Assembly: GCA_025934105.1 (NCBI GenBank)
Contig: JAICYS010000028.1
Coordinates: 1 to 34,674 of the forward strand
Origin: Myxococcota bacterium
GTDB taxonomy: Bacteria > Myxococcota_A > Polyangia > Fen-1088
DNA: 34,674 bases
Reading direction: 5' to 3'
In this document: piece by piece, positions 7,979 to 23,661 of the stretch
How the letters are laid out: each line of letters opens with the position of its first letter
How positions within the stretch are numbered: position 1 is the first letter of the stretch
Program-made: the position numbers and the translations under genes
The notes under the pieces: model-generated
Seen by the model: the letters and a program-made list of their open reading frames with translations, nothing else
What the model was told of the DNA's origin: nothing
The model's database searches: none

Positions 7979-7979
7979 C

Positions 7980-10900
7980 ATGCGGCGGGCGGCGCGCGTC
8001 ACCGGCAAGGTGCTCTTCGCGGTGCTGGCGGTGGTGTTCCTGGCCATCGGCGGCCTCTGGACGTTCGCCGAGAGCGCGCGCGGCGGCGATCTCATCCGGC
8101 GGCTGGCGCTGCGGCAGGTGAACGGCGCCATCGCCGGAGACCTGGCCATCGACCGGCTGCGATTCGGCGGCGACCGGCTGTCTCTGTCGGGCGTGGTGTT
8201 GCGCGATCCCGCCGGCGGCGTGGTCGCGCGTGTCGGCGCCGTCGACCTGCGGTTTGCGCCGCTGGCGCTGTTGGGCGGCACGCTTCGGATCGATCGCCTG
8301 CAGATCGACCGGCCGGACCTGCGCGTGATCTCGGGCCCCGACAGCTCCAACCTGTCGCGGGCCCTGGCCAGCCGGCATCCGTCCCGGGCGGCCCCGGCCA
8401 AGCCCGCGCCGCCGTCGCGCTCGACCGGCCCGGGGTTCGTCGTCGATCTGCGCCGCTTGGCGGTCCGCGGCGGCAACCTGTCGCTGCACGCCGGCGCGCC
8501 GCCGGTGCACGTGCGCTCGCTGAACGTCGACGGGTCGGTCCGCTACGAGACGGGCACCGAGCGGGTCCGGACGGACCTGCGCGTGGTGGCGGTGGGCGCC
8601 CGCTTCGAGGCGCGGGGCGGGCTGGAGCTGGGCGCCCGCCGCGCCGCCCAGGACGGGTTCGCGCTGCGCGTGCACGACGTGAACCTGGCCGATCTGATGC
8701 GCGACGCGCCGCAATCGGACCTGGCGCTGAACCTGGACGCCTTCGGGACGAACGCGGCGGTCGATCTGAAGGCGCGCTCGCCCGGCTTGATCGCGAAGGG
8801 GCACGCCTCGACGGACGGGGTTCACGTGGACGCGCACCTGGGCGTGAACGCGACGGATCTGGACGCCACGGCCCGCAGCCTGGCCCGCTGCCATCTGGCG
8901 CCGCCCCTGGAGCTGGCCGGCGCCGGCACCGTCGACGTGGCGGCCAGCGGGACCCTGGCGCACCCGAAGGTGACGCTGGCGGCGCGGGTTCCGCAGCTCG
9001 TCTACCAGGATGACGCCGTCCGGGACCTGAAGATCAGCGCGACGCTGCCCCGCATCGATCAGCCGCAAGAGGTGCGGCTGGACGTCGCGGCGGCCGGGAT
9101 CCGGCTGGCGGACCGGCGCATCACGGGGCTGGAGCTGGCGCTGCACATCATCGGGCCGCACATCACCGTCAACGCGCGCACGGCCACGCCCTATCCGCTG
9201 GCCTTGACGGCCGACGGCTGGCGGCTGACGCCGCACGCCCTGCGCGTCGACGCGCTGACCTTGCGCTATCCGGGAGAGTCATGGGCGCTGGCCGGGCCCA
9301 CCAAGCTGGTCGTCGACGGCGACCGGCTGGAGCTGGCCGGGCTGGACCTTCGCGGCCGCGGACAGCGGATCCGGGCCGACGTGTCCAAGCTCGGCAAGGC
9401 CGGGCGGGCGCGGGTGGCCGTGTCTCACTTCGACCTCGGGCGCCTGCCCCGGCCGCTGGTGCCGCCCGCGGTGGCGCGGCTGGGCAAGATCGATCTGGAC
9501 GCCGACGTCCGATTTTCGGCGTCGCGCCTGCGCGGTCGGATCGGCGCCCGGGCGGCCGGAACCGGGGTGGACGCCCGCTTCGACCTGCCGGCCGCCTGGC
9601 CGCCCCGCGACGCGAGGCAGCCGGTGCGAATCAAGCTGGTCACGCCCGAGACCGACCTCGGCCAGCTCGCCCGGACCGTCGAGACGGTGACCGGACGGCC
9701 CCTTCCGGTCGCCGCGCGCGGCCGCCTCCAGCTGAACGTCGACGCCGACGGACGCGCCGGCAGCCCGCACGTCGCGGTGACGCTGCACGGGCGCGGGCTG
9801 GCCATCGCCGATCAACCGGTGGGCGACGTCGACCTGTCCGTCGAGGGGAACGGCGACCGACCGCTCGCGCTGCGGCTGCAGGCCAAGGGCGCGGCCGGCG
9901 GCGTGCTGACCGGGCCGTTGCAGGTGACCGCGCAAACGAACGAGTCGCTGCGGGCGATGGTGCGGCGGCCCCCCGACGGAAAAGCCCTGGCTCGGCTGCC
10001 GTTCGAAGCCCACCTGGACGCGCGCCGCCTGTCGGTGGCCGCCGCCGGCAAGCTGGCCAGCCCGCCCGTGCAGGCGCGCGGGACCGTGGCGTTGCACGCC
10101 GATCTGCACGGCACGGCGCAGGCCCCCGAAGGGACGCTGGCCGTCGACGTATCCGGCCTGACCGCGCCGCACGTGCCGGCCACCGACGCCCGCATCGAGG
10201 GGGCGCTGGACGGGCGCGCGGCCCGGCTGAACGTCCGCCTGGTCCAGGCGCGGCACGCGTTGCTGGCGCTGACGGCCCGGGTGGAGGCCACCTGGCGCGA
10301 GCTGCGGGACCGCGCCGCCTGGCCCGAGCTGCCGCTGCGCGTGCGGGCCGTGGTGGGCCCGGTGGCCGTCAAGCACGCCGGACTGCCGCGGCCCGATCAG
10401 CCGGACGTGCGGCGGTCCGAGCTGTCCGGCCGGCTTCACGCCGACCTGGCCGTCGACGGCACGCTGCGCGCGCCGCGCTTGCTGGCGCACGTGCAGGCCG
10501 ACGACGTGCGGCTGGACCGCACCGCCGTCGGCTACGCGCGGCTGACGGCGCGCTACGAACAGGAACGCGCCGGGATGGACCTGCTGGTGGCGTCGGCCAA
10601 CGGCGGCAAGCTGACCGCCGGGGGCAGCGTGCGCGCGAACCTGGGCCTGCCGGCGCTGGCGGCCCATCCGCCCGACGTGCAGCGGCTGCCGTTCGAGCTG
10701 ACGGTCAAGGCGCAGCAGCTGGACCTGCGCGGCTTCTCCGGGCTGACGGACATGCTGCCCCAGGTGGGCGGCCTGCTCGACCTGCAGATCCAGGCGCGGG
10801 GGACGCCGGCCGACCCGCGCTTTTCGGGGCGCGTCGAGTGCACGCGCTGCGAGGTGGAGGTCGACAGCATGGGCGACTTCCACGACATCCACCTGGCGCT

Positions 10901-12128
10901 GCACGGAGACACCGACAAGATCGTCCTCGACGAGCTGACCGCCAAGAGCGGAGCCGGCCAGGCCCGGATCACCGCGGCGCTGACCAGCAACGCCGGACAC
11001 ACGTCCTACGATCTGTCGGGCGCCATCAAGGCGACCACCATGCCCATCTACCAGGAGGGGCAGGAGCTGGCGACGCTCACGCTGCATGCCGACCTCTCCG
11101 GCTCGGCGGGCGGCGCCCATGCGCGCGCCAAGATTCACATCGCCGACGCGCGCATCGCGCTGTCCGACCAGAAGCGCAAGAACCTGCAATCGCTGAAGGC
11201 GGCCGACGACATCATCCTCCTCGAGAACGGGCGACCCATCAACCGCCGCCAGGCCAAGCGGCTGCGGGCCGTCACCGCGCGGCTCGACCGGCTGCGGGCG
11301 GGCGGCCCGGCCGCCGCCGCGGGCGAGGACCAGGCGCCGCCGGCCGCCGCCGGTCAAGCCGCCAGCGTCGGCCCGTGGCGCAGCTTGCTCATCGCGATCG
11401 ACGCGCCCCGCAAGCTGTGGGTGAGCGGCAACAACGCCAACCTGGAGCTGGGCCTGGCCCAGAATTTCCGCGTGCGCGTCGGGCGCGAGGTGCAGGTCTA
11501 CGGCCAGGTCATCACGCACCGCGGGCGCATCAACGCCTTCGGGCGACGGTTCGACCTCAAGGCCAACTCCACGCTGAACTTCGGCGGCCCCGCCGACCAG
11601 CCCACGCTGGACGTGACGGCCCAGTACCAGAACGACGCCGAGAACGCGACGGTGCTGCTGACCGCCAAGGGGCCGCTCGACCACCTGGCCATCGGCGTGA
11701 GCTCGCCCAACCGGCCCGAGCTCAGTCAGTCGCAGCTCTACACGCTGATCATCACCGGGCACGTGCAGATGGGCGGAACCGGCGGCGGGTCGGGCGGCTC
11801 GGCGGCGGCCAACGAGGCGTCGGGCCTGATCGCCAGCGCCATCGCGGGCGGCCTGCAAAAGACGCTGGCCAAACGCCTGCCCGTCGACGTGTTGACGATC
11901 GACGCCGGCGGCGGCGGCCTGACCGGCACGCAATTCGAGGCCGGACGCTACATGACCGACCGGCTGTACGTCGGGTACGTGGGCCGCATCGGCGCCGACC
12001 CGACCCGCTATCAGAACCGGAACGCGGTCCACGTCGAGTACGAGCTGGGATCCCGCTGGCAGTTCGCGGGCGAATACGGCGACGTGGGCACCGGCTCGGC
12101 GGACCTCATCTGGAAGAAGACCTACTGA
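7980..12128 (+). CDS. tamB: Translocation and assembly module protein TamB
   Basis: 1382 residues. TamB is anchored in the inner membrane and reaches across the periplasm to TamA; the pair helps insert some outer-membrane proteins and has been tied to phospholipid transport. An N-terminal membrane segment (about residues 10-30, LFAVLAVVFLAIGGLW) precedes a very long beta-strand-rich body. The C-terminal 300 residues fit the TamB domain (DUF490): VYGQVITHRGRINAFGRRF and FNFGG-like turns, PTLDVTAQY, SQSQLYTLIITG, and an ending with ... FAGEYGDVGTGSADLIWKKTY-type strands. The gene starts one base after the tamA stop, with GGAGAGG inside the tamA end, so translation is probably coupled. It is close to the length of E. 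coli TamB (about 1260). Confidence 0.93.
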   Translation: MRRAARVTGKVLFAVLAVVFLAIGGLWTFAESARGGDLIRRLALRQVNGAIAGDLAIDRLRFGGDRLSLSGVVLRDPAGGVVARVGAVDLRFAPLALLGGTLRIDRLQIDRPDLRVISGPDSSNLSRALASRHPSRAAPAKPAPPSRSTGPGFVVDLRRLAVRGGNLSLHAGAPPVHVRSLNVDGSVRYETGTERVRTDLRVVAVGARFEARGGLELGARRAAQDGFALRVHDVNLADLMRDAPQSDLALNLDAFGTNAAVDLKARSPGLIAKGHASTDGVHVDAHLGVNATDLDATARSLARCHLAPPLELAGAGTVDVAASGTLAHPKVTLAARVPQLVYQDDAVRDLKISATLPRIDQPQEVRLDVAAAGIRLADRRITGLELALHIIGPHITVNARTATPYPLALTADGWRLTPHALRVDALTLRYPGESWALAGPTKLVVDGDRLELAGLDLRGRGQRIRADVSKLGKAGRARVAVSHFDLGRLPRPLVPPAVARLGKIDLDADVRFSASRLRGRIGARAAGTGVDARFDLPAAWPPRDARQPVRIKLVTPETDLGQLARTVETVTGRPLPVAARGRLQLNVDADGRAGSPHVAVTLHGRGLAIADQPVGDVDLSVEGNGDRPLALRLQAKGAAGGVLTGPLQVTAQTNESLRAMVRRPPDGKALARLPFEAHLDARRLSVAAAGKLASPPVQARGTVALHADLHGTAQAPEGTLAVDVSGLTAPHVPATDARIEGALDGRAARLNVRLVQARHALLALTARVEATWRELRDRAAWPELPLRVRAVVGPVAVKHAGLPRPDQPDVRRSELSGRLHADLAVDGTLRAPRLLAHVQADDVRLDRTAVGYARLTARYEQERAGMDLLVASANGGKLTAGGSVRANLGLPALAAHPPDVQRLPFELTVKAQQLDLRGFSGLTDMLPQVGGLLDLQIQARGTPADPRFSGRVECTRCEVEVDSMGDFHDIHLALHGDTDKIVLDELTAKSGAGQARITAALTSNAGHTSYDLSGAIKATTMPIYQEGQELATLTLHADLSGSAGGAHARAKIHIADARIALSDQKRKNLQSLKAADDIILLENGRPINRRQAKRLRAVTARLDRLRAGGPAAAAGEDQAPPAAAGQAASVGPWRSLLIAIDAPRKLWVSGNNANLELGLAQNFRVRVGREVQVYGQVITHRGRINAFGRRFDLKANSTLNFGGPADQPTLDVTAQYQNDAENATVLLTAKGPLDHLAIGVSSPNRPELSQSQLYTLIITGHVQMGGTGGGSGGSAAANEASGLIASAIAGGLQKTLAKRLPVDVLTIDAGGGGLTGTQFEAGRYMTDRLYVGYVGRIGADPTRYQNRNAVHVEYELGSRWQFAGEYGDVGTGSADLIWKKTY

Positions 12129-12176: not shown

Positions 12177-12437
12177 CGCATCCTGGTGGTCGAGGACGAA
12201 AAGATCTGCGGGAGGTGCTGGCCTACAACCTGCGTCAGGCGGGCGGGCGCGGGTGCGCACGCGCAGAACCTGCGGAGGACGTGCGGGGGCGACAAACCGG
12301 GCGTGAGCCCCCGGACCATCGACACCCACGTCAAGCGGCTGCCCGACAAGCTTGGGGGCGCCGGCTCCCTGGTCGAGACCGTCCGCGCGACCGGAGACCG
12401 GCTGCGGGCGGAGCACCAGGTCGTCGTCAAGGCGTAG
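12177..12437 (+). pseudogene. Remnant of a PhoB/OmpR-type response regulator
   Basis: The two ends of a response regulator are fused with the middle missing. The 5' end reads RILVVEDEK; one base is then missing (near 12204), and the next frame continues LREVLAYNLRQAG, the start of a receiver domain of the PhoB kind. After a garbled stretch, the original frame resumes with the end of a winged-helix DNA-binding domain: VSPRTIDTHVKRLPDKLG, then LVETVRATGDRLR. Intact relatives have RLRDKLG and VRG-x-GYRLR, so key positions are also mutated (Arg to Pro, Tyr to Asp). About 260 bases remain of an expected 690; the phospho-acceptor Asp and most of both domains are gone. Its end overlaps the galE 3' end by 11 bases. 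I am confident it is non-functional; the PhoB identity is likely but not certain. Confidence 0.8.
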
Positions 12438-13422
12438 GACGCCGGCCGAAACGGCCGGGCCGCTCGTGCCAGCGAAGGGCGTGGCCGACGATGGTGTCCA
12501 GCTCCGCGTAGCGGGGCCGCCACCCGAGGAGCTCGGCGGCCTTGCGGGCGTCCGCCACCAGGATGGGCGGATCGCCGGCGCGCCGTCCAACCTCGCGCGT
12601 CGGGACCTTCCGCCCGCTCGCGAGCTCGACCGAGCGGATCACCTCGCGCACCGAGTGGCCGCGACCGGTCCCCAGGTTGGCGGCCAGGCTGCTGGCGCCC
12701 TCGTTCAAGCGGCGCAGGGCAGCCAGGTGCGCCTCGCCCAGGTCGGTCACGTGGATGTAGTCGCGCACCGCGGTGCCGTCCGGCGTCGGATAATCGGTCC
12801 CGTAAATGTCGAGCGGCGGCCGCTGGCCCAGCGCCGACCGGATCGCCAGCGGGATGAGATGCGATTCGGGCTCGTGCTCCTCGCCCAGCTCACCGTCGGG
12901 ATCGGCGCCCGCCGCGTTGAAGTAGCGCAGGACGGCGAAGCGGATCCGGTGCGCCGTCTGGTACCAGCGCAGCATCTTCTCGACGATCAGCTTCGACTCG
13001 CCGTACGGGCTGACGGGGGCCTGCGGGTGGTCTTCGTCGATGGGGACGCGCACCGGTTCGCCGTAGGTGGCGCAGGTGGACGAGAACACCAGGTCGCGCA
13101 CGCCCTGCTTCACCATCGCGTCGAGCAGGTTGATCGTGCCGACCACGTTGTTGCGGAAGTACTTGCCGGGATCGGTCATCGACTCGCCGACGTAGGTGTA
13201 GGCGGCGAAGTGGACGACCGCGCTGACCCGGTGCTCTTCCATTACCCGACAGACCAGGTCGCGGTCCGCCAGATCGCCCTCGACCAGCGGGCCCCACTTG
13301 ACGGCCTCGCGGTGCCCGAACACCAGGTTGTCGAGGACGATCGGCTGCAGGCCGGCCCGGGCGCAAAGCTTGGCCGTGTGGCTTCCGATGTACCCGGCCC
13401 CGCCCACAATCAAGATCGACAT
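12427..13422 (-). CDS. galE: UDP-glucose 4-epimerase GalE
   Basis: 331 residues, the usual length. GalE interconverts UDP-galactose and UDP-glucose with a tightly bound NAD, completing the Leloir pathway and supplying UDP-galactose for envelope glycans. The Rossmann motif GGAGYIG is at residues 7-13. The catalytic S115-T116 lies in VFSSTCATYG, with Y140 and K144 in SPYGESK. RYFNAAGADPDGELGEEH and DGTAVRDYIHVTDL are hallmark GalE segments. GGATGTGAC precedes the ATG. It is a single gene, 7 kb from galT and galK, which lie on the same strand in a sugar-uptake operon without their own galE. It diverges from a small secreted-protein gene across 119 bases. Confidence 0.96.
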   Translation of the reverse strand: MSILIVGGAGYIGSHTAKLCARAGLQPIVLDNLVFGHREAVKWGPLVEGDLADRDLVCRVMEEHRVSAVVHFAAYTYVGESMTDPGKYFRNNVVGTINLLDAMVKQGVRDLVFSSTCATYGEPVRVPIDEDHPQAPVSPYGESKLIVEKMLRWYQTAHRIRFAVLRYFNAAGADPDGELGEEHEPESHLIPLAIRSALGQRPPLDIYGTDYPTPDGTAVRDYIHVTDLGEAHLAALRRLNEGASSLAANLGTGRGHSVREVIRSVELASGRKVPTREVGRRAGDPPILVADARKAAELLGWRPRYAELDTIVGHALRWHERPGRFGRRPTP

Positions 13423-13541
13423 GTCACATCCATTGGGTTTCGCGTTGCGGCGCTGGTGTTTGGCGGGCGCGGGCCCGATCGTTGAAGGCCGGGTTTGCCA
13501 TCGCCAGGGCCGGCCTTAGGTTGGAGGTGCGGGAGGGACAC

Positions 13542-13961
13542 ATGGTGGGTCGATGGGCGCGAATCGCGGGAATGGGTTGCGCACTGGCGATGGGGGCGGC
13601 CGCCGGCGCGCAAGCGAATGACCAGCCGCGTGATACGTCGGCGGCGAATCAATGCCCGCTGGGACGCACCTATCGGGCCACCGCGGTGACGCCCGACCAT
13701 GCCCGCGAGCAAGGCTACGGCCAGGACGTGCAGCGGCTGCGCGGCGCCGACATCCACATCGCCGCCCAACCGGGCCTGACGCAGGAGTGGTTGCAAAAGT
13801 CGATCGAGCGCAGCGTTGCCAACGGCGATTGCGACTTCGGAACGTCCCATTTGACGGTGAACGTTCTGTCGGCCGGCAACGCGTTCGAGGTGCGGCTCAC
13901 GACGCCGGACGAGCGGGCAGCGCGCCAGGTGCTCCAGCGGGCGCAACAGCTGGTCCGCTGA
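13542..13961 (+). CDS. Small secreted protein of unknown function
   Basis: 139 residues. GGGAGGG lies just upstream of the ATG at 13542, which makes this start better than the one at 13482. The N-terminus is a Sec signal peptide (basic MVGRWAR, hydrophobic core, cleavage near AQA-ND at about residue 26). The mature part has two cysteines (in NQCPLG and NGDCDFG) that could pair, and a likely alpha/beta fold with TSHLTVNVLSAGNAFEVRL near the end. I do not recognise a family. It converges on the FG-GAP-like lipoprotein gene with 14 bases between the stops. Confidence 0.75.
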   Translation: MVGRWARIAGMGCALAMGAAAGAQANDQPRDTSAANQCPLGRTYRATAVTPDHAREQGYGQDVQRLRGADIHIAAQPGLTQEWLQKSIERSVANGDCDFGTSHLTVNVLSAGNAFEVRLTTPDERAARQVLQRAQQLVR

Positions 13962-13975
13962 GGTCCGCCGCGGCG

Positions 13976-14737
13976 TCACTCGAGCGTCTCCAGGACGGTG
14001 ACCGGGCCGCCGGGCTGACGGCGGGTGAGGACAAAGGCGCGCATCACGTTGGGGGCGTTGAGATCGGCGGTGCGGGCCAGGTTCAGGAACACGATGGCGT
14101 CGCCGATGCCGTCGCCGTTGAAGTCGCCGCCGGCCCACCAGGTGAGCCGGCCCTGGTAGCGGCCGCGCACCACCAGCTCGCGATAGTTGGCGCGCGCCGC
14201 GGCGCGGTCGAAGGCCAGCGTCGGATCGACGGCGTGCCAGGACCGCGTCTGCCCTGGCTTCGCCGGCGCCGGTGACAGCGCGGCCGGCAGGAGGTCGCCG
14301 GGATGGTTCGACGACACCACGTCCGCCAGGTAGGCGGCGCGGGGCGCGCTGGCCCGCCGGACCAGAGCCAGCGCGCGACAACGGATCGACTTTTCCTTGA
14401 ACGTGTCGCGCTCCCATTGCGGGCCCAGCTCGACGTCAGTCTCCTGAATGCCGTCCAGGTCGGCACAATTGATCAGATGACGCCGGAGGCGGTTCGGCGC
14501 GTGACCATCCTTGAGCACGATGGTGCCGTTCAGCCAGGGCGCCGTCCAACCGACCTCCAGATCGTCCGACCCCGATTCGACCAGCCCCGGCCAGACGTCG
14601 ACCCCTGACGGCGCGCGGTGCGGCTGCGGCACCGCCGCGGACGGTGCCGCGGGCAGCGGCGGCGCGGCTCGCTTGCAGGAACAGCAGCCAAGGAGGCTCA
14701 GGGCCGCCAGCAGCGCGGACCGGCGACGGGCGGTCAC
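13976..14737 (-). CDS. Lipoprotein with FG-GAP/VCBS-like repeat
   Basis: 253 residues. The GTG start overlaps the methyltransferase stop (GTGTGA), so it is translationally coupled to that gene. A lipoprotein signal, LLAALSLLGC with the cysteine at residue 18, is followed by a Pro/Ala-rich tether. Near residue 200, WWAGGDFNGDGIGDAIVFLN is a classic FG-GAP/VCBS element: a calcium-binding DxDGxxD loop of beta-propeller repeats. An earlier segment, NCADLDGIQETDVELG, may be a second, weaker blade. Proteins of this type are often surface or periplasmic binding modules; the ligand is unknown. Pairing with a cytosolic methyltransferase in one transcript is unexpected. Confidence 0.75.
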   Translation of the reverse strand: MTARRRSALLAALSLLGCCSCKRAAPPLPAAPSAAVPQPHRAPSGVDVWPGLVESGSDDLEVGWTAPWLNGTIVLKDGHAPNRLRRHLINCADLDGIQETDVELGPQWERDTFKEKSIRCRALALVRRASAPRAAYLADVVSSNHPGDLLPAALSPAPAKPGQTRSWHAVDPTLAFDRAAARANYRELVVRGRYQGRLTWWAGGDFNGDGIGDAIVFLNLARTADLNAPNVMRAFVLTRRQPGGPVTVLETLE

Positions 14738-16056
14738 ACCACCCCCGGAGGCAGCGTGGCAAAGAACGCTCGCAGCTGATCGCCGATTCGCGGCGTGTCG
14801 AACCCCCACAGGCGCCCCATCTCGGCGGCCACGTCGTTCAACGAGCGCTGTCCGTCGAGGAGCGAGATGACGCTGCCCGCGAACACCGACTGGCGGCCGA
14901 ACGCGATCAGCGGGTCCGTCAGGGGAATCGGCCGTGACGGATCGGCGATCCAGGGCAGCTCCGCCGCGGCGGGCGGGGGAGCCGCGGCGGGGGCGATTTT
15001 GCGGGCGGCAAACGAAAACACCGTCTCGATTCGCCGCGAACCGCTGGCCGGCGAGTCGAAATAGGGGACGTCGTCGCGCGACCGGCTGACCAGTTCGAAA
15101 CCCGAGGCCGCCGTGAGGTCCCAAATCTCTTCGATCGTGTAGGTGGTGCCCAAGCTCTGTTTGAACCGCAGGGGACCGACGTTGAGCCAGGTCCCGCCCG
15201 TCCGAAGCACGCGATTGACGGCTGCAGCGGTCTCGCGAAAGTCGCGCTCGTTGGCGTCGATGAACCACGGCGTGAGGACCGTGTCGAACGACTCGGGCGG
15301 AAACGGCGGAGCCAGCGCGTCCGCCACGGCGAACGTGAACCCCGGCCCCGGCCGAACGTCCGACCGGAGCTGGTGCTGGACCACGACCCCCTGCTGGGAG
15401 TGCGGGGCCACCGGAAACTCCGGCAACACGACGGTCTCGCCGCGCATCAGGCGAGCGGCCACCAGCAACGGAAACGGGTTGAGATCGATGGCCCAGGTCT
15501 CCGTCGGCCCCAGCGCCCGATGCACGTCGACGGCCAGCCGGCCGGCCCCCACCCCGTAGGCGGCCAGGCGGCCCAGCGGCTGCCGGACCATCCGCTGGAC
15601 GACGGCGCGGGTCGCGTCCACCTCGGCCTGCCCCCAGGCCCAATCCCGAAACACGTTCTCCCCGAAGCGCAGCAGCTCGTCGGCGCCGCCGGCGCCGGGC
15701 GCCGCCGGCAACAGCTGGCGCTCGCCCCCGGTGACGTCCTGGAACAGCCGCTGGACCTCCAAGCGCTGTTGCTCGCAAGCGGCCACCACGGCTTCGACTC
15801 GGGCCCGCGTCCGAGGCAGCGCCTCGGCGCCGGCCGCCTCGGCGCGCCACTGCTGCAGGCTGCGCTCGGTCTCGGCCGTGAAGTCCGCCAGGCGATGGAT
15901 CCAGACCGCCCGCCACAACCTCGGGTCGGGCATCAGGCAGGGAAGGTCGCCCACCGGCGGATAGGCCGTTCCGCAGGCCGAGCAGCGGGGCGGCTCGGCG
16001 GCCAGGTCCAGCGGCCGACCGTCACAGCGCGGGCAACCGACGGGCCCGGTCGTCAC
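14734..16056 (-). CDS. N2227-like SAM methyltransferase with N-terminal zinc ribbon
   Basis: 440 residues, cytosolic. An N-terminal zinc ribbon of Trm112 type has C8, C11, C25 and C28 (GCPRCDGRPL ... RCSACGTAYP). The catalytic part is a class I SAM methyltransferase: glycine-rich VGAGRLA, the acidic ribose-binding end in AIDLNPFPLL, then VLTPWFIDAN, TGGTWLNVGPLRF and YTIEEIWDLTAASGFEL. These last three blocks match the N2227/carnosine N-methyltransferase family, which methylates imidazole nitrogens of histidine-containing peptides. The last 60 residues form a separate small domain that recalls PqqD-like winged helices; this is tentative. I chose the GTG at 16056 because the zinc ribbon starts right after it and the upstream ATG would overlap the divergent oxygenase gene. 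The substrate is unknown. Confidence 0.82.
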   Translation of the reverse strand: MTTGPVGCPRCDGRPLDLAAEPPRCSACGTAYPPVGDLPCLMPDPRLWRAVWIHRLADFTAETERSLQQWRAEAAGAEALPRTRARVEAVVAACEQQRLEVQRLFQDVTGGERQLLPAAPGAGGADELLRFGENVFRDWAWGQAEVDATRAVVQRMVRQPLGRLAAYGVGAGRLAVDVHRALGPTETWAIDLNPFPLLVAARLMRGETVVLPEFPVAPHSQQGVVVQHQLRSDVRPGPGFTFAVADALAPPFPPESFDTVLTPWFIDANERDFRETAAAVNRVLRTGGTWLNVGPLRFKQSLGTTYTIEEIWDLTAASGFELVSRSRDDVPYFDSPASGSRRIETVFSFAARKIAPAAAPPPAAAELPWIADPSRPIPLTDPLIAFGRQSVFAGSVISLLDGQRSLNDVAAEMGRLWGFDTPRIGDQLRAFFATLPPGVV

Positions 16057-16076
16057 GCAACCACCGCGCGAATGCG

Positions 16077-16106
16077 TTGTGGTGGATTCGCCGATCGATC
16101 TACCAT
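16077..16106 (+). promoter_or_regulatory. Possible promoter giving a leaderless oxygenase mRNA
   Basis: TTGTGG at 16077-16082 and TACCAT at 16101-16106 are 18 bases apart. The start codon at 16114 lies 7 bases after the -10, where transcription would begin, and no Shine-Dalgarno sequence precedes it. This fits a leaderless transcript. Both hexamers are imperfect. Confidence 0.3.
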
Positions 16107-16113
16107 TCGCGCA

Positions 16114-16695
16114 ATGCAGTTGGTCCAGCTCGACGACGTCATCCCCAAACCGTATCAGAATCAATTAGAGGCGGAGATCTCGGCCCTGGGTTGGTTTTTT
16201 CACCAGGAGAGCGCACGTCCGGGCCTCGAGTTCGCGGCCAACTACGGCGGCTTTTACCACATGGCTTTCGACGCCGCGTCTCCGGTGCCGGTCGTCTCGG
16301 CCATCAACGCCATGCTGGTTCCGCTCTTGTTCGTCTCCTGCGAGAAAGCCGGACTGAGCTTCAGCGACCTGATCCGAGTCCGGCTTGGTCTGTTTGCCAG
16401 CAACGCGCTGAACGTCCCCTACCACAACCCGCACGTCGACTTTTACGAGCCGCATCTGGTCGGCCTTTACTACGTGAACGACTCTGACGGGGACACGGTG
16501 GTCTTCAATCAAACGGCCGACCAGGTGACCGTTCAGCAGTCCGCGGCGCTCGCCAATTCGGGCGGGTTCACCGAGCTGGCTCGGATCCCGCCCAAGAAGG
16601 GACGCATGGTGTTCTTCGAGGGAAGGCATTACCACGCCAGCATGCACCCGATGAAGAGCTCACACCGGATCGTGGTGACCTTCAACTTTCGATGA
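16114..16695 (+). CDS. 2-oxoglutarate/Fe(II)-dependent oxygenase (prolyl 4-hydroxylase-like)
   Basis: 193 residues, one compact double-stranded beta-helix domain. The iron triad is visible: H107 and D109 in NPHVDF and H174 in RHYHAS. R185 in HRIVVTFNF is placed to bind the 2-oxoglutarate carboxylate. These enzymes hydroxylate or otherwise oxidise proteins, peptides or small molecules using O2 and 2-oxoglutarate. LVGLYYVNDSDGDTVVFNQ is typical of prolyl 4-hydroxylase-like and phage-type members. The gene diverges from the zinc-ribbon methyltransferase across 57 bases, suggesting that the two act on the same substrate or are co-regulated. The ATG at 16114 starts exactly where family homology begins (VQLDDVIPKPYQNQL). 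Confidence 0.87.
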   Translation: MQLVQLDDVIPKPYQNQLEAEISALGWFFHQESARPGLEFAANYGGFYHMAFDAASPVPVVSAINAMLVPLLFVSCEKAGLSFSDLIRVRLGLFASNALNVPYHNPHVDFYEPHLVGLYYVNDSDGDTVVFNQTADQVTVQQSAALANSGGFTELARIPPKKGRMVFFEGRHYHASMHPMKSSHRIVVTFNFR

Positions 16696-16722
16696 GCGCC
16701 GGCGCGGGGGCCGCGCGGCGCT
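16695..16722. terminator. Strong two-part hairpin between convergent genes
   Basis: AGCGCCG (16695-16701) pairs with CGGCGCT (16716-16722), and inside it CGCGG (16703-16707) pairs with CCGCG (16711-16715) around a GGG loop; G16702 is bulged. The hairpin overlaps the last base of the oxygenase stop codon and the stop codon of the convergent DUF1552 gene, so it can serve both. There is no U-tract. Confidence 0.55.
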
Positions 16723-18310
16723 ACGTCGAGAACACCCCGGGCAGCGGGCCGGTGTACTGGCTCTGCGCCCCCAGGCTGTTCATGGTCACGCCGAACACGG
16801 GCGCCATGGCCAGCCAGAGGTCGTTGTACGGACGGTTGCCGCTCTTCCCATCGCGCGTCGGCAGCGATCCGCCCGACACCTTCAGGTAGGTGCCCCCGTT
16901 CACCTTCGTGTTCTTCCCGCCGAACACGATGAGCGGCATGTTGGTCTGGTCGTGGTCCCAGGCCCGGCCGACCTCGGTGATGTAGACGATGACGGTGTTG
17001 TCGATCAGCATGTTGCCGTCGACGTCGGGCGTGGTGGCGAACTCTTGAATGATGTTGGCGTTGGCCTGTGAATAGAACTCGTTGATCTGATTCAGCCAAC
17101 CCTGCGTCATCGAGTTGGTCGTGTGGCTGGGCGGATGGTGAGGCGTCGACTGCGGGCTCCCCTGGATGGTCGCCCCCTGGAACGAGCCCGGAAAGACCAC
17201 CCAGTTCGTGCCGGCCGACCACATGAACGTGGCAACCCGCACCAGGTCGCACTGAAACGCCGCCTTGATCAGGCGAAGCTGCGCCAGCCCCAGGTCGTAG
17301 TGCGGGTGGCTGGAGGGCTGGTTGGGAACGTAATAGTCGACCCCCGCCAGGCTGGTCGAGACGCCGTTCGACGTCTGCGTGCCGCTCTCGCTGTTCATGA
17401 AGCTGGGAGGCGCGGTCGGCTTCGTGCAGGTCGCCCCGCCGCCGCTGCCGCCCATGCCGCCGCCGTACGTGCCCTGCAAGCTCTTCTGGAGCTGGTTGAT
17501 CGCGTCCGCGTGGGCGGTGATCTTGTCCTTCTCGCTGGCCGGCACCAGCGCCTGCAGCCGCTGCAGATCGCTCTGCAGATAGCTGACCACGCTCATCTTT
17601 TGCGACAGGATGTTTGCGTTGTTGCCGCTGCTGCCCCCGCTGCCGGTCATCCCGCCGCCGAAGATCCGGTTGAAGGTGCCCAGGCAGTCGGTCACAGGCG
17701 CCAGAGGCTGGCGGGCCGAGGCCGGGTCGGAGACGCCGGACTTGGGCGCCAGATACGACAGCGTTCGCGGCGCGACCTCGTTGCGGTCCGAGCGAACGTC
17801 CGCCGCCAGCTGCAACGAACCGAACGGCGTCGGATTGGACGTGTTCGGGCCGCCCAGCACCGCCGACTTCTGCAGGAACAGCTGATCGATGGACGGTCCG
17901 CCCGCGCAGTGGTCCTGCTGGCTGGTGCTTCCCAGCGTGGGAACACCGGTCATGATGGCGACCATGCCGCCTTCGTGGGTATTCTGTCCGCCGTGATTGC
18001 CGGTGGTGTCCTTGCCGCTGGTGGCGGTGACGACGTTGAGGCCGTCGATCATGCACATGTACTTCTGCACCGGCGCGAACGGGGCCGTCTCGGTCGGCAG
18101 CGTGAAGCTGGTGGTCGTCGCCGACGCGTTCGGCCGCCAGCCGCTGAGGTCAGGCGTCGCGCCCAGCGGGTGGTGAAGGATGAGCAGCCGCAACGGCGCG
18201 GGGGCCCCGGCCGCGCGCGCCTCGATCGAACGCAGGAGCGGAACCAGCAAGGGCGCCGTACCGCCCAGTCCTCGAAGGAACGATCGGCGCGCGAACTTGT
18301 AAGACATCAT
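16721..18310 (-). CDS. DUF1552 family protein, Tat-exported
   Basis: 529 residues. The N-terminus MMSYKFARRSFLRGLGGTAP is a twin-arginine (Tat) signal of the kind usual in DUF1552 proteins. The body has the family's features: LRLLILHHPLGATPDLSGWRP soon after the signal, a conserved GGQNTHEGGM-type segment, and near the C-terminus VIVYITEVGRAWDHDQTNMP followed by VFGGKNTKVNGG. The fold is thought to resemble sulfatase/alkaline-phosphatase-like enzymes, but no activity has been shown to my knowledge. Long Gly/Ser stretches (GGGMTGSGGSSGNN and GGGMGGSGGG) interrupt it. The start overlaps the DUF1592 stop as ATGA, with GGGAGG 6 bases upstream, so the two proteins are coupled and probably work together in the periplasm. 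Confidence 0.9.
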   Translation of the reverse strand: MMSYKFARRSFLRGLGGTAPLLVPLLRSIEARAAGAPAPLRLLILHHPLGATPDLSGWRPNASATTTSFTLPTETAPFAPVQKYMCMIDGLNVVTATSGKDTTGNHGGQNTHEGGMVAIMTGVPTLGSTSQQDHCAGGPSIDQLFLQKSAVLGGPNTSNPTPFGSLQLAADVRSDRNEVAPRTLSYLAPKSGVSDPASARQPLAPVTDCLGTFNRIFGGGMTGSGGSSGNNANILSQKMSVVSYLQSDLQRLQALVPASEKDKITAHADAINQLQKSLQGTYGGGMGGSGGGATCTKPTAPPSFMNSESGTQTSNGVSTSLAGVDYYVPNQPSSHPHYDLGLAQLRLIKAAFQCDLVRVATFMWSAGTNWVVFPGSFQGATIQGSPQSTPHHPPSHTTNSMTQGWLNQINEFYSQANANIIQEFATTPDVDGNMLIDNTVIVYITEVGRAWDHDQTNMPLIVFGGKNTKVNGGTYLKVSGGSLPTRDGKSGNRPYNDLWLAMAPVFGVTMNSLGAQSQYTGPLPGVFST

Positions 18311-20184
18311 TTCGTGCCTCCCGTGCGTGCTCGGACGAAGTCGGAGACCAGCAGGCTCTCGAACAGACCCTTCACCGTCCCATCGTTCTGACCGCGCAAG
18401 GTGTTCAGCTCGCACGTGTTGTACGTGCCAATCTGGGACCCGACGGCGTACGACGTCATCTGCTGGACGGCGCAACCGGCGAACACGCCGCTCGAGACCA
18501 TGGCCTGCGCGAACGCCGGCGCGCCCGTCATGGACTGGCCCGCGAACGGCGAAGTGGGAACGAAGCTCACCGTGGGATCGATCTTGTTCCCCGCCTCGTC
18601 CACGGTCCGGTAGTTTCCGATCGGACCGAAGTTGAGCAACACGCGCGAGTAAGGATCCATTTGCGAGTGGCAGCCCTGGCAGGGCTGGAACTGCATCCGG
18701 GCGTCCGACAGAAGGACCTCGCTGTTACAGGCCGACAGCGGCGGATCGCTGGCCGACGCCGTCGGCGACTTGCAGGCCAGCACGTTCATGGCGCTGGGCG
18801 TGGACAGGTCGATGGGCCCCGGCAGCGGGTCGGCGCAGACGATCGAGTCGTGGATCAACCGCCCGCGCTTGACGATCGAGGTCACCGACGGGTCCGAGGC
18901 CGACCAGAGGAAAGCCGGCTGAGTCAAAAGGCCGCTGCGCCCCTGCGAGGCGGGCCAGGTGGCGGCGACGAACGTCGAGTCGCTGGTGGGCGCCTTGCCG
19001 TTCGCGTAGGTCAATCCGGGGTAGAGGGTCGCCAGGCGCTGGTTGACGTAGACGGTCTGCGAGGTCATGAGGTCGGCCAACTTCCCCGACCCATTCCCCC
19101 ACAGAATGCTGTTCACCCAATCCTGCGAGGCGGTCAGCAGGTCGCTCTCGATGGCCGTTTGATTCTGCTCCGAGGACGACAGCGAGGTGAACAGCGACGT
19201 GTCCTTCACCTTCGAGAACATCTGGTTCACGTTCAACCAGCTGAGGATGATGTTGGTGACGTTGGCCTGCACCGCCGGCACCGAGAACAGACGATCGATC
19301 TGCGTCATGATCCCGGACGCGCTCGACAGGCTGCCGCTGGAGGCCGCCTGTGTCAGCTGCGCGTCCGGCAGCGAGCCGAGCAGCGTGAAGCTGAGCTGGC
19401 TGGCCACTTCGTACGGCGTCAGCGTGGTGTTTGGGAAGTTGCCGCTGGCGTCCGCCGTCAGGGTGGTGGGCCCGAGCTCGGTCCGATACACGAACGAGCT
19501 GGAGAGAATGACCGCCTGGATCATGTTCTCGATGCCGGTCTTGTAGTCGGTCATCGCGCCCTGCGCGTAGACCTTCATCAGGTTCGGCACCTCGGTGGAA
19601 TCGAGGGGCCGCCGGTACGCCTTGGCCGCCAGCGTCTGGATGAAATTGGTCGCGCAGGTGGTCTGGGCCGACGCGGTGGTTCCGCTGCACGGCGCCAGCG
19701 ACGTGGTGACCGTGGAATCAATCTGGGTCAGCACGGTCTGCGACTGCTGATACATGTCCCAGAGCATCGGGGCGTCCACCTCCATCGTGGGATCCACGAT
19801 GAACGCGAACTGCGCCTCGCTCCCCTTGGACGTCAGATTGGGCGCGGCGGAGAGGCCCAGCAGGTCCTTGACCGCGGCTCCCCACTGAGCGGCCGAGAGC
19901 CGCCAAATGCGCCGGGTGACCGGAGCGAGCGGCGTGCACGCCGCCGAGCCACCGCTGCCGGACGCCGTCCCACCTGCCCCGGTGGTCGAGCCGCCGCCGG
20001 TCGACGATCCGGAGCCGCCGCTTCCAGGATTTCCGACCGAGGAGCCGGTGCCGGTCGAGCCGGAGCCCGTGCCGCCGGAACCGGCGTGAGGACCTAATTG
20101 GTCATCAATGTTTCCTTGGCAGCCGAAAGCCACCAGGCAGGCTGTCGTTACCACGAGACGGGCCCAACGATGCATGTTCTGCAT
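18307..20184 (-). CDS. DUF1592/DUF1588 family lipoprotein with one CxxCH motif
   Basis: 625 residues. A lipoprotein signal (RLVVTTACLVAFGC, C22) is followed by about 70 residues of Gly/Ser/Thr linker and then the domain series known from Planctomycetes and Myxococcota: DUF1587-like RRIWRLSAAQWGAAVKDLLG, DUF1595-like AYRRPLDSTEVPNLMKVY, DUF1592 with SSSFVYRTELG, and DUF1588/1585 with PCQGCHSQMDPYSRVLLNFG. The CQGCH motif, about 110 residues from the end, could bind one c-type haem. The function of the family is unknown; it is nearly always next to a DUF1552 gene, as here. I chose the ATG at 20184 because GGGAGG lies 5 bases upstream of it. A recognisable promoter lies 59 bases upstream. Confidence 0.9.
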   Translation of the reverse strand: MQNMHRWARLVVTTACLVAFGCQGNIDDQLGPHAGSGGTGSGSTGTGSSVGNPGSGGSGSSTGGGSTTGAGGTASGSGGSAACTPLAPVTRRIWRLSAAQWGAAVKDLLGLSAAPNLTSKGSEAQFAFIVDPTMEVDAPMLWDMYQQSQTVLTQIDSTVTTSLAPCSGTTASAQTTCATNFIQTLAAKAYRRPLDSTEVPNLMKVYAQGAMTDYKTGIENMIQAVILSSSFVYRTELGPTTLTADASGNFPNTTLTPYEVASQLSFTLLGSLPDAQLTQAASSGSLSSASGIMTQIDRLFSVPAVQANVTNIILSWLNVNQMFSKVKDTSLFTSLSSSEQNQTAIESDLLTASQDWVNSILWGNGSGKLADLMTSQTVYVNQRLATLYPGLTYANGKAPTSDSTFVAATWPASQGRSGLLTQPAFLWSASDPSVTSIVKRGRLIHDSIVCADPLPGPIDLSTPSAMNVLACKSPTASASDPPLSACNSEVLLSDARMQFQPCQGCHSQMDPYSRVLLNFGPIGNYRTVDEAGNKIDPTVSFVPTSPFAGQSMTGAPAFAQAMVSSGVFAGCAVQQMTSYAVGSQIGTYNTCELNTLRGQNDGTVKGLFESLLVSDFVRARTGGTK

Positions 20185-20242
20185 TCCTGCCTCCCGATCG
20201 AGCACGTCAATAACTTGTTTCTGGACGTCCCTGCAATGGCTA

Positions 20243-20271
20243 TTTTTAAACAAACTTACTTTACTAATCAA
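20243..20271 (-). promoter_or_regulatory. Sigma-70-like promoter for the DUF1592-DUF1552 operon
   Basis: On the minus strand, TTGATT (20271-20266) and TAAAAA (20248-20243) are separated by exactly 17 bases, in an AT-rich island that stands out in this very GC-rich DNA. The start codon of the DUF1592 gene is 59 bases downstream. Each hexamer matches 4 of 6 consensus bases. The remaining gap up to the end of galT (20272-20370) holds nothing else I can identify apart from a short TTCCGC/GCGGAA stem at 20365-20381. Confidence 0.55.
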
Positions 20272-20370
20272 GTCCCGTCGAACCCCGTCGGGGGCCGGTC
20301 GGGCTGGTCACGGCTCTCTCTTCTCAAATACTGTCCGACAGCTCCGGATGTTTTATGAGATTCGTTCCGC

Positions 20371-21411
20371 TCACGGCGGAATTGCCGCCGCCAGCCCGCG
20401 GAGGCGCGACGCCGCTTGCTCCGGCGTCAGGTCCCGTTGAGGTTCGGCCAGCATTTCGTACCCCACCATGAACTTCTTCACGGTGGCAGATCGCAGCAGA
20501 GGTGGGTAAACGTGGGCGTGAAGCTGCCAGGGCTCCGGCGGCTGGTCGTCGAACGGCGCCCCGTGCCATCCCAAACAATAAGGGAGCGACACGTCGAAAA
20601 GTGTGTCGTATGCCGCCAACAGCCGGTGCAGCAAGCTGGCCAGCCCGTCCCGCTGCCCGGCGTCGAGGTCGCACAGCCGCGCGGTTCGCCGGCGCGGCAA
20701 CAGCAACGTCTCGAACGGCCAGACGGCCCAGAACGGGACGACGGCCAGGAACTCGTCGTTCTGGCAGACGACCCGCGCCGAGAGCCGCGTCTCGCGATCG
20801 GCGTAGTCGACCAGCAGCGGCGATCCCGCCGACGCCGCGTAGGCCCGCTGGTGGCGATCCTCGGCGGCGGCGTCGCTGGGCACCACGCTCGATGCCCAGA
20901 CCTGCCCGTGCGGGTGCGGGTTCGAACACCCCATCATGGGGCCCTTGTTCTCGAAGATCTGCACCCAGCGGTGGGTCTTGCCCAGCGCCGCCGTCTCGCC
21001 GGCCCAGGTGTCGATCACGGCGCGCGTCCCTGCCCGGTCCAGCTCGGCCAGCGTCAGATCGTGGCGGGGGCTAAAACAGATGACCCGGCACACGCCGCTC
21101 GTCGGCTCGGCCCGCAACAACGGGTCCGCGGCATCGGCGCCGGATTCGGCCCCGGCCGAAGCCGGCAGCAGCGCCGGGAAGTCGTTGTCGAACACGAACG
21201 TGCCCGCGTAGGGCGGGTTCACCGCGCCGCCGGCGCGCCGGTTGCCGGGGCAAAGGTAGCAGTCGGGATCGTGGGCCGGCCGCCGCGCGGGCGGGATCGG
21301 TTCGTTCTGCCCCTGCCACGGGCGTTGATTGCGGTGCGGTGAGACCAGCACCCATTCCCCGGTCAGCGGGTTGTACCGGCGATGCGGCTGGGCTTCCGGA
21401 TCGAACGACAT
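20371..21411 (-). CDS. galT: Galactose-1-phosphate uridylyltransferase GalT
   Basis: 346 residues, the normal length. GalT exchanges galactose-1-phosphate with UDP-glucose to give UDP-galactose and glucose-1-phosphate. The nucleophilic histidine is H168 in [11 protein letters not shown]. Zinc ligands are visible as C51 and C54 (DCYLCPGN) and H117 (SPRHDLT). The N-terminal [21 protein letters not shown]-type start and [17 protein letters not shown] near the end are hallmark GalT segments. It is the last gene of the leftward sugar operon, 16 bases after the galK stop, and has no clear ribosome-binding site of its own. Confidence 0.96.
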
Positions 21412-21427
21412 CCGCGCGCTTCGCCGC

Positions 21428-22663
21428 TCAGGCCATGGCCGCCGGTTCGATCAGGCCGGCTCCGCGCGTCGGCCGCGACACGAAGGTCGTCGCGGTATTT
21501 CCGGTGCGCGCGGCGTAGTCGCGCTCGAGGCGCGTGGCCACTGTCTCGACGTGCTTCGAGCGAACCAGTGAAACGATGCAGCCGCCGAATCCGCCGCCCG
21601 TCATGCGCGCGCCCAGCACGCCGTTGGCCTCGCCGAGCTCGCGCGCGATGTCGACCAGCACGTCGAGTTCGGTCGAGCTGACCTCGAAGTCGTCGCGCAG
21701 CGACCGGTGGCTCTCGTACATGAGGGCGCCCACCTTCGCGAACTCGCAGGCCTCCAGGTGGCCGGCCGCGGCCAGGGTGCGCAGGTTCTCGGTCACCACG
21801 TGGCGCGCGCGCCGGCGCACGGTGGGGTCGGCGATCTTTCCGCTGGCCTCCACCATGTCGGGCGTCGCGTCGCGCAAGCTGGAGACGCCCAGCAGCCGGG
21901 CCGCGTCCGCGCACTCGCTGCGGCGGCGCGCGTAAAACCCGTCGGCCAGCGCGTGCTTCACGTTCGAGTTGCAGATCACGACCTCGACGTCCGGGTCGCC
22001 GAACGGGACCACGCGCACGTCCTGCGAGCCGCAATCGATGAGGAGCGCGCCCGTCTCGTCGCCGAGAACGGAGGTCAGCTGATCCATCATGCCGCAAGGG
22101 ACGCCCGCGAAGTCGTGCTCGGCCCGCTGGCAGAGCCGCGCCTTGTCCCACGGGTCCAGCCGCGCGCCGGTGGCCGCCTCCAGCAACGTGGCCGTCGCCA
22201 CCTCCAGCGCGGCGCTGCTGGACAGCCCGCCGCCGATCGGAACGTCGGACAAGATGACCGCGTTCAGCGACGGCGGCGCCAGCCCGCGCTGGCAAAAGGC
22301 GCTGACGATGCCGCGCAGGTAGTTGGCCCACGACGGCTCGCCGGGCGCGTCCGAGCCGTCCAGCCGGATGTCGACCGATCGGTCCAGCGCCGCGCTGTAC
22401 GCCTGCAGGCGGATTTCGGATCCCGCCGCCGGGCCGCCGGCGACCACCACGTGGCGATCGATGGCCAGCGGCAGCACGTAGCCGCCGTTGTAGTCGGTGT
22501 GCTCGCCGATCAGGTTGACGCGTCCGGGGGCCGCCACCACCCAGCGGGGAGCCGCGCCGAACCGATCGGAGAACAGGCGCGCCGCGGTCTTCGCCAGCCG
22601 AGGCGGCGGCGAAAGAGGCCGCGACGACATCCACGCGGGCAAATCTGCCGGTAACGAGCTCAC
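21428..22663 (-). CDS. galK: Galactokinase GalK
   Basis: 411 residues from a GTG that overlaps the preceding stop codon as GTGA. An ATG at 22630 is a possible alternative but lacks a ribosome-binding site. GalK phosphorylates galactose at C1 with ATP in the cytosol. GHMP-kinase motifs are intact: the galactokinase signature [15 protein letters not shown] at 47-61, the phosphate loop [15 protein letters not shown], and [11 protein letters not shown] near the C-terminus. [12 protein letters not shown] contains the catalytic Asp region. Together with galT it shows that the imported sugar, or its hydrolysis product, is galactose. Confidence 0.95.
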
Positions 22664-23661
22664 CCCGGGTACCACACTTTCCGCGGATCGTCCGCTGCGC
22701 GCTGGTACGTCCAGGCCGACTCGACCATCTTGGCCAGGTCGTATCGGGGACGCCATCCCAGCAGGAATTTCGCCTTGGCGTTGTCCAGCCAGGTCGATTG
22801 ATAGGGCGTCTTGACGGGCACGCCTTCCAGCCCGCGCGTCCGGCCCAGGTAGGCGGCCAGCTCGCCGTAGTCGACCGGCTCGTCCATGCAGACGTTGAAC
22901 GTCTGGCCGCGCGCGGCCGGGTGGTCGACGGCCTTCAGGATCGCGTCGATCAGATCCTCGACGTGAACGAAGTTCCGCTTCACGGGCCGGCCGTCGGGGT
23001 CCAGCATCACGGGCACCGCGCCGCTTCGAACGTAACGATCGGCGGCCGCGGCGCCAACCAGGTCGCGCCAGCGGGGCCCGCCGAACACGTCCTCGCCGAA
23101 GGAGAGCTGATACTTGAAGTCGTCCTTCTCCATGATCCAGGGGGCGCGCAGGCAGCAGGCGTTCAACCCGTACTGGATGACGACCTGTTCCAGCAGCACC
23201 TCCTCCAGCACCTTCGACAGCGCATAGCAGCCGGGGTACGCCGAGTGCCGCTGGGTCTCGGTCACCGGGACGGGGTGCGGGTAGAAGAAGTGGCCCATCC
23301 CGGCGTCGCCGCCGATCAAGATGAACTGCCGGAACGTCGGGCTGACCCGGCAGGCTTCCAGCATCCAGAACATCCCCTTGATGGCGACGTCGATGATCGT
23401 GTCGGGCGTCTCCTTGCTGGTCGCCAGGTGCAGCACGTGCGTCACGCCGGCGATCGCGCGCTCGGCCACGCCGCGCTCTTCGATGGCGCCCGACACTACC
23501 TCCAGCCGCGGTTGCTCCGGCAGCTTGCGGTTGTGGCAGAGCGCCCGCAGCCGAAACCGCGAGAAGGCCGGCGCCGCCAGCAGGCGGGCGATGAAGGACT
23601 GGCCCACCTTGCCGGTCGCGCCCGTGACCAGCAGCAGAGGATGGTCGGCGGAGGCGGCCAC
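22660..23661 (-). CDS. NAD(P)-dependent epimerase/dehydratase (extended SDR)
   Basis: 333 residues from a GTG one base after the permease stop. It is an extended short-chain dehydrogenase: the Rossmann motif VTGATGKVG at 12-20, catalytic Y146 and K150 in CYALSK, and FILIGGDAG where other members carry the catalytic Ser/Thr. KRNFVHVEDLIDAIL and FNVCMDEPVDYGELAAYLG are typical of the sugar epimerase/dehydrogenase class. It differs from the GalE at 12.4 kb, lacking the SSTCATYG and YFNAAG blocks. Lying between the transporter and galK, it may oxidise or epimerise the imported sugar before the Leloir steps, for example as a galactose or uronate dehydrogenase. The substrate cannot be read from sequence. 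Confidence 0.85.
   Translation of the reverse strand: MAASADHPLLLVTGATGKVGQSFIARLLAAPAFSRFRLRALCHNRKLPEQPRLEVVSGAIEERGVAERAIAGVTHVLHLATSKETPDTIIDVAIKGMFWMLEACRVSPTFRQFILIGGDAGMGHFFYPHPVPVTETQRHSAYPGCYALSKVLEEVLLEQVVIQYGLNACCLRAPWIMEKDDFKYQLSFGEDVFGGPRWRDLVGAAAADRYVRSGAVPVMLDPDGRPVKRNFVHVEDLIDAILKAVDHPAARGQTFNVCMDEPVDYGELAAYLGRTRGLEGVPVKTPYQSTWLDNAKAKFLLGWRPRYDLAKMVESAWTYQRAADDPRKVWYPG

Follow-up and report, generated by a model that had tools for sequence, protein, structure and literature searches.

A methyltransferase of the N2227 (carnosine N-methyltransferase) type is recurrently linked to loci that encode a DUF1592-type cytochrome and a DUF1552 protein, and this link is the new point of the present analysis. 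The gene lies in a 34,674-nucleotide stretch of DNA from a Myxococcota bacterium (JAICYS010000028.1; hereafter the window), which is contig C122 of a draft genome of 5.99 Mb in 472 contigs. In the window, it is accompanied by a divergent 2-oxoglutarate (2OG)/Fe(II) oxygenase gene, a DUF1552 gene, and a gene for a planctomycete-type cytochrome lipoprotein. That the methyltransferase belongs to an exported planctomycete-type cytochrome locus is well supported. At a probability of roughly 40%, we propose that the methyltransferase and the oxygenase are cytoplasmic tailoring enzymes of this locus, and that they possibly methylate a histidine of the DUF1552 protein, which we infer to be the substrate. 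Judged by titles and the opening lines of abstracts, no report of this linkage was found in the literature.

Linkage of the methyltransferase to DUF1592/DUF1552 loci

The methyltransferase has 29 matches, including that of the window. Neighborhoods were obtained for 20 of the remaining 28, and six matches that are short fragments or score weakly (G114 twice, G268, G107:C799, G258, and G138) were excluded. Based on hidden Markov model (HMM) matches, genes for a DUF1592-type cytochrome and a DUF1552 protein are located within 5 kb of the methyltransferase in 11 of these 20 in-class loci, or in 12 if two overlapping contigs of the sister species G001 are joined, against a chance expectation of less than 1. 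A gap of at most 200 bases occurs in 9 of 21 loci when the window is counted (expected 0.04). With the five f6 loci collapsed to one and the window excluded, the gap is at most 1.1 kb in 6 of 16 loci (expected 0.13, P = 2e-9). These expectations are derived from an approximate model that uses the per-genome DUF1552 counts, places genes uniformly, and ignores contig ends. The arrangement of the linked genes varies across loci, with convergent, divergent, upstream, and downstream placements all observed.

The linked DUF1552 proteins are scattered over their tree, with eight label changes, at least six of which are forced by supported branches. Because they do not form one clade, the linkage is unlikely to be the legacy of one inherited copy. 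On the tree of the methyltransferases, linked members are interspersed among unlinked ones to the extent seen in shuffles (7 changes versus 7.0), and therefore no single linked clade is seen there. Some of the neighborhoods show further features of note. In L038, a second S-adenosylmethionine (SAM) methyltransferase of another family (8661-9704) is positioned between the DUF1552 gene and the N2227 methyltransferase gene. In L042 and L043, the methyltransferase and the DUF1592/DUF1552 pair seemingly lie inside a larger gene cluster, which we take to be ebo-like.

Organization of the locus in the window and in a sister species

The features of the window are as follows.

14734-16056, minus strand: N2227/carnosine-type SAM methyltransferase with an N-terminal zinc ribbon and a PqqD-like tail, 440 residues, GTG start
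15973-16035, minus strand: Trm112/UPF0434-like ribbon within the methyltransferase, C8-C11-C25-C28 (four Cys in 20 of 20 homologues, match to 2kpi)
15256-15258, minus strand: codon of D267, the counterpart of CARNMT1 D316 (profile alignment with CARNMT1)
14743-14880, minus strand: PqqD-like helical tail of the methyltransferase, residues 393-438 (Pfam PqqD, PDB, hhalign)
16057-16113, no strand: 57-base gap separating the divergent starts of the methyltransferase and oxygenase genes (sequence)
16114-16695, plus strand: 2OG/Fe(II) oxygenase of the phrog_274 family, 193 residues, ATG start (PF13640, PF13759, phrog_274)
16721-18310, minus strand: DUF1552 (HXXSHH) protein with a Tat-like (twin-arginine translocation) ARRSFLR signal (PF07586, E = 2.9e-40)
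18307-20184, minus strand: planctomycete-type cytochrome lipoprotein, DUF1595/1592/1588/1585 with CQGCH (domain matches; start codon by inspection of the open reading frame, ORF)
13976-14737, minus strand: lipoprotein-like orphan gene, the GTG of which overlaps the methyltransferase stop as GTGA
12427-13422, minus strand: galE
20371-22756, minus strand: galT/galK

The order on the minus strand is cytochrome lipoprotein, DUF1552, methyltransferase, and lipoprotein-like gene, and the plus-strand oxygenase is inserted between DUF1552 and methyltransferase, with its stop 25 bases away from the DUF1552 gene. For the three genes named in a preliminary description of this DNA (methyltransferase, oxygenase, and lipoprotein), the coordinates, the starts, the exact 57-base gap, and the GTGA coupling of the lipoprotein were all verified.

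In the sister species G001, contig C217 (4825 bases) carries on one strand a CxxCH porin-like gene, a cytochrome lipoprotein gene, the oxygenase gene (78% identical at the protein level), and the methyltransferase gene (64% identical). The porin-like call was made by eye and has no Pfam family, and the cytochrome match is weak. Only 3 bases separate the oxygenase gene from that of the cytochrome. A second contig, C91, carries on one strand galK, a 33-residue galT remnant, and genes for DUF1592 (67% identical to that of the window) and DUF1552 (72%) proteins. Because C91 and C217 overlap at their ends by exactly 99 bases and the cytochrome-lipoprotein ORF continues over the join, the natural reading is a single one-strand run of galK, galT remnant, DUF1592, DUF1552, cytochrome lipoprotein, porin-like gene, cytochrome lipoprotein, oxygenase, and methyltransferase. 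The window may correspond to this locus minus the three middle genes and with the oxygenase inverted; alternatively, either draft may contain an assembly error.

The lipoprotein encoded at 13976-14737 had been described as propeller-type, a label that does not hold: a single FG-GAP-like stretch of 15 residues is found (E = 0.37, below the cut-off) rather than several repeats. The protein has no full-length homologue besides itself in 317 genomes of the class, and the gene is placed outside any conserved unit. At the other loci, L039, L040, and L041 have a homologous lipoprotein-like gene directly upstream of the methyltransferase; the copy in L039 resembles VWA weakly, at a score that falls short of the Pfam cut-off.

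In the window, the galactose genes are interrupted by the module, with galE on one side and galT and galK on the other. A small, secreted-looking plus-strand ORF without a Pfam family (13482-13961) sits between galE and the lipoprotein gene, and plus-strand genes for an Omp85/POTRA protein and then a TamB-like protein occupy 5822-12128. A promoter scan of 13300-20800 returned none, and terminator-like sites are about as many there as in shuffled sequences.

Methyltransferase family, ribbon, and active site

Carnosine is a muscle dipeptide, and the CARNMT1-type enzyme methylates its histidine. The window methyltransferase scores 32.4 bits for PF07942 (carnosine N-methyltransferase), the curated cut-off of which is 27, and the methyltransferase occurs in 23 of the 317 class genomes. 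A profile was built from alignment A1, which comprises 20 homologues (among them the window protein but not L053), and compared with solved structures. Human CARNMT1 ranks first (5yf0, E = 4.5e-14), followed by the carnosine methyltransferase 5x62 (E = 3.8e-11) and, over the ribbon, the Trm112-like protein SCO3027 (2kpi, E = 4.5e-7); 2js4 and 2pk7 are also matched. The ribbon cysteines C8, C11, C25, and C28 are kept in 20 of 20 members, and the ribbon is missing from L053, the relative outside the alignment. Both the carnosine methyltransferase-type catalytic domain and the Trm112-like ribbon of the preliminary description are thereby confirmed. An AlphaFold model of the methyltransferase made with one homologue had a mean pLDDT (predicted local distance difference test) of 43.6, too poor for a fold search.

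In the alignment of the profile with CARNMT1, the Asp of the FID motif corresponds to chain residue 269 and the His after LLY to chain residue 300, a spacing of 31 that equals that between D316 and H347. According to the excerpts consulted of PMC6971037, D316 and H347 of CARNMT1 bind and hold the imidazole ring, and those of PMC6400499 likewise give D316 a role in imidazole binding. The counterpart of D316, D267, is invariant (20 of 20), which is compatible with the earlier proposal of action on histidine. The counterpart of H347, by contrast, is K299 in the window and His in only 4 of 20 members. Because this histidine is not kept, membership is claimed only in the wider N2227 family and not among carnosine methyltransferases. 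Imidazole N-methylation is a plausible chemistry judged from these residues, although the pocket differs from that of CARNMT1.

The PqqD-like tail

A C-terminal tail is present in 17 of the 20 aligned methyltransferases, and it had been suggested to be PqqD-like. Ten of these 17 tails match Pfam PqqD (best E = 0.002). The window tail alone gives no match, and the full-length window protein resembles PqqD only weakly in NCBIfam (E = 0.037). Against the PDB, the sole matches at E < 0.01 are three PqqD sequences, 5sxy (top, 3.4e-4), 5vrd, and 3g2b. When the tails were compared by hhalign with PqqD (19 sequences taken from related genomes), the probability was 94.6 and the score 41, whereas none of 30 column shuffles scored above 12.5. 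The suggested kinship thus stands over the helical half of PqqD: the last ~48 residues align, spanning columns 16-64 of 67. The N-terminal strands of PqqD, which bind the peptide, are unmatched in the tail. Because only columns 16-64 match and no preceding strand is found, the tail is described as a PqqD-like helical core and not as a demonstrated peptide-binding element.

The 2OG oxygenase

The assignment of the neighboring gene to the small 2OG/Fe(II) oxygenases is borne out. The protein scores above the cut-off for PF13640 and PF13759 and matches phrog_274 across residues 2-192 (E = 6.5e-33). By inspection, H107-V-D109, H172 or H174, and R185 are seen; we take H107/D109 and the distal His to be the HxD...H iron site and R185 to be the distal Arg of this enzyme class. 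A comparison of the oxygenase profile with solved structures yielded no relative (chance matches only, E ≥ 0.25), and the AlphaFold model had a mean pLDDT of 33.8, which is likewise insufficient for a fold search. The 104 matching records of the phage collection are all cyanophages, and none reaches 60% identity, the top value being 35.1% among the 20 matches listed. No match to the oxygenase was found in viral contigs, and a scan of genome contigs gave the sister metagenome-assembled genome as the sole match. Many of the phrog_274 relatives in cyanophages carry the annotation 'DNA endonuclease V', a label that their sequence does not support and that is apparently a misnomer.

Among the 317 class genomes, strong phrog_274 matches (E < 1e-30) are found in four, all of which also carry the methyltransferase. 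This co-occurrence is only suggestive, since three of the four genomes belong to one family. Adjacency of the two genes in relatives, which the preliminary description required of its proposal, gives a mixed picture: they are neighbors in the one sister species with both genes, but there they run in the same direction. In the more distant genomes G006 and G294, the methyltransferase gene is on a different contig from the gene for the strong phrog_274 oxygenase. The G006 oxygenase relative lies directly behind a gene for a CYGCH lipoprotein, which matches PSCyt2 only below the cut-off (E = 0.021), and one for a DUF1501 protein, which barely exceeds its cut-off.

A proposed role and the evidence that bears on it

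In the proposed mechanism, the methyltransferase would catalyze imidazole N-methylation, most likely of a histidine side chain, and its tail and ribbon would hold a protein or peptide substrate. That substrate may be the DUF1552 partner, methylated in the cytoplasm before Tat export. A Tat-like signal is present in 11 of 12 linked DUF1552 proteins and in 37 of 41 others, the latter comprising L053 and 40 proteins from a high-scoring, and hence biased, listing. Because Tat cargo folds in the cytoplasm, a DUF1552 histidine would be reachable before export, and several histidines in DUF1552 are nearly invariant. In this genus, the oxygenase would introduce a further modification that is optional, and the lipoprotein would be a species-specific passenger. 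In its most specific form, namely a dedicated maturation of DUF1552, as the folded Tat cargo of planctomycete-type cytochrome loci, by a histidine methyltransferase with a ribbon and a PqqD-like tail and by an optional phage-type 2OG oxygenase before export, the proposal is doubtful. One DUF1552 column is His in 8 of the 12 linked proteins versus 1 of the 41 others, with three gains on the tree. The gene for the sole unlinked DUF1552 protein with this extra His is convergent with, and 2 bases from, a class I methyltransferase gene (L179 5502-6395, Methyltransf_23), which may be chance.

Several observations weigh against the proposed role. On their contigs, 9 of the 20 in-class loci (8 of 20 after the G001 join) have no DUF1592 and DUF1552 pair within 5 kb, and HMM searches found no DUF1552/1592 match near the methyltransferase in the weak in-class homologues L105 and L106 or in five out-of-class loci (L098-L101 and L108). 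With 9-53 DUF1552 copies and few methyltransferases per genome with a match, most DUF1552 proteins manage without the methyltransferase. The unconserved H347 counterpart and the restriction of the oxygenase-methyltransferase adjacency to this genus point the same way. Finally, the histidine column was rejected as a mark of linkage: it is missing from the window DUF1552, it was found post hoc over all columns, and an independent-pair sign test is not significant.

Neighborhoods obtained additionally, from G043 and G296, contain no DUF1552/1592 match. In L098 (G583), one of the five out-of-class loci, the protein encoded just upstream has a Tat-like signal but matches no Pfam family, and CxxCH motifs are found in two genes that lie farther upstream.

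A serious, if tentative, rival is that the methyltransferase and the oxygenase make or modify an imidazole compound or a sugar for the exported cytochrome system, with no protein being modified. The CARNMT1 substrate is a dipeptide in the consulted parts of PMC6971037 and PMC6400499, the window module is located between galT/galK and galE, and the excerpts of PMC5615132 suggest a carbohydrate role for planctomycete-type cytochromes, whose functions they describe as entirely unknown. The sugar O-methyltransferase 6uv6 is likewise among the weaker PDB matches, but this match is limited to the general SAM fold, and the PqqD-like tail found in 17 of 20 members is a protein-type add-on. A further alternative, in which the linkage has functional meaning for the methyltransferase but the oxygenase is a chance, phage-like passenger, is unlikely. 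The cyanophage character of its family and its adjacency in two sister species only, in opposite orientations, would fit such an origin. However, the G001 oxygenase gene sits 3 bases from a cytochrome gene, its G006 relative directly follows another cytochrome-like/DUF1501 pair, and all four genomes with strong phrog_274 matches carry the methyltransferase (23 of 317 overall), though three are of one family.

The preliminary description had named chemistry like that of ribosomally synthesized and post-translationally modified peptides (RiPPs) as one possibility. In such a pathway, the tail would bind a precursor peptide, and methylation and hydroxylation would take place on the histidines of that peptide. 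The kinship of the tail with PqqD is statistically supported, but its alignment lacks the strands that precede column 16, the repeated neighbors are exported cytochrome/DUF1552 genes and not RiPP genes, and the 57- and 25-base gaps flanking the oxygenase have no room for a precursor gene, the rest of the genome not having been searched for precursors. This pathway is very improbable. Overall, the domain calls of that description (N2227 type, ribbon, PqqD-related tail) were mostly right, and its RiPP reading is set aside.

If the tailoring proposal is true, histidine methylation would be built into an exported redox machine, which would provide a first functional handle on DUF1552 and DUF1592. 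A recurrent methyltransferase of known chemical class beside multi-copy cytochrome/DUF1552/DUF1501 genes offers a first testable chemical prediction for them, and the carnosine methyltransferase family would be extended to a bacterial, possibly protein-directed branch.

Comparison with known systems

The window methyltransferase shares with CARNMT1 and the N2227 family (PF07942) the catalytic fold, the motifs RDW, GxGxGR, FID, and GPL, and the imidazole-binding Asp. It differs in being bacterial, in its N-terminal ribbon and PqqD-like tail, and in not keeping the H347 counterpart. Its four-Cys ribbon resembles the Trm112/UPF0434 zinc ribbon and matches 2kpi, 2js4, and 2pk7, but it is fused in cis to the methyltransferase, whereas Trm112 is a separate partner. 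In common with PqqD and the RiPP recognition element, the last ~48 residues of the tail align; unlike in those systems, the N-terminal strands are unmatched and the gaps beside the oxygenase have no room for a precursor gene. The oxygenase has a full-length match (residues 2-192) to the phrog_274 2OG oxygenases of cyanophages, in contrast to which it is chromosomal, is encoded beside cytochrome genes, and shares no more than 35% identity with the phage proteins listed. Lastly, the locus has the domain order and the pairing of the planctomycete-specific cytochrome (PSCyt3/PSD) and DUF1552 pair, in which a DUF1592/1588 cytochrome adjoins DUF1552, and to this pair it adds a methyltransferase and, in this genus, an oxygenase.

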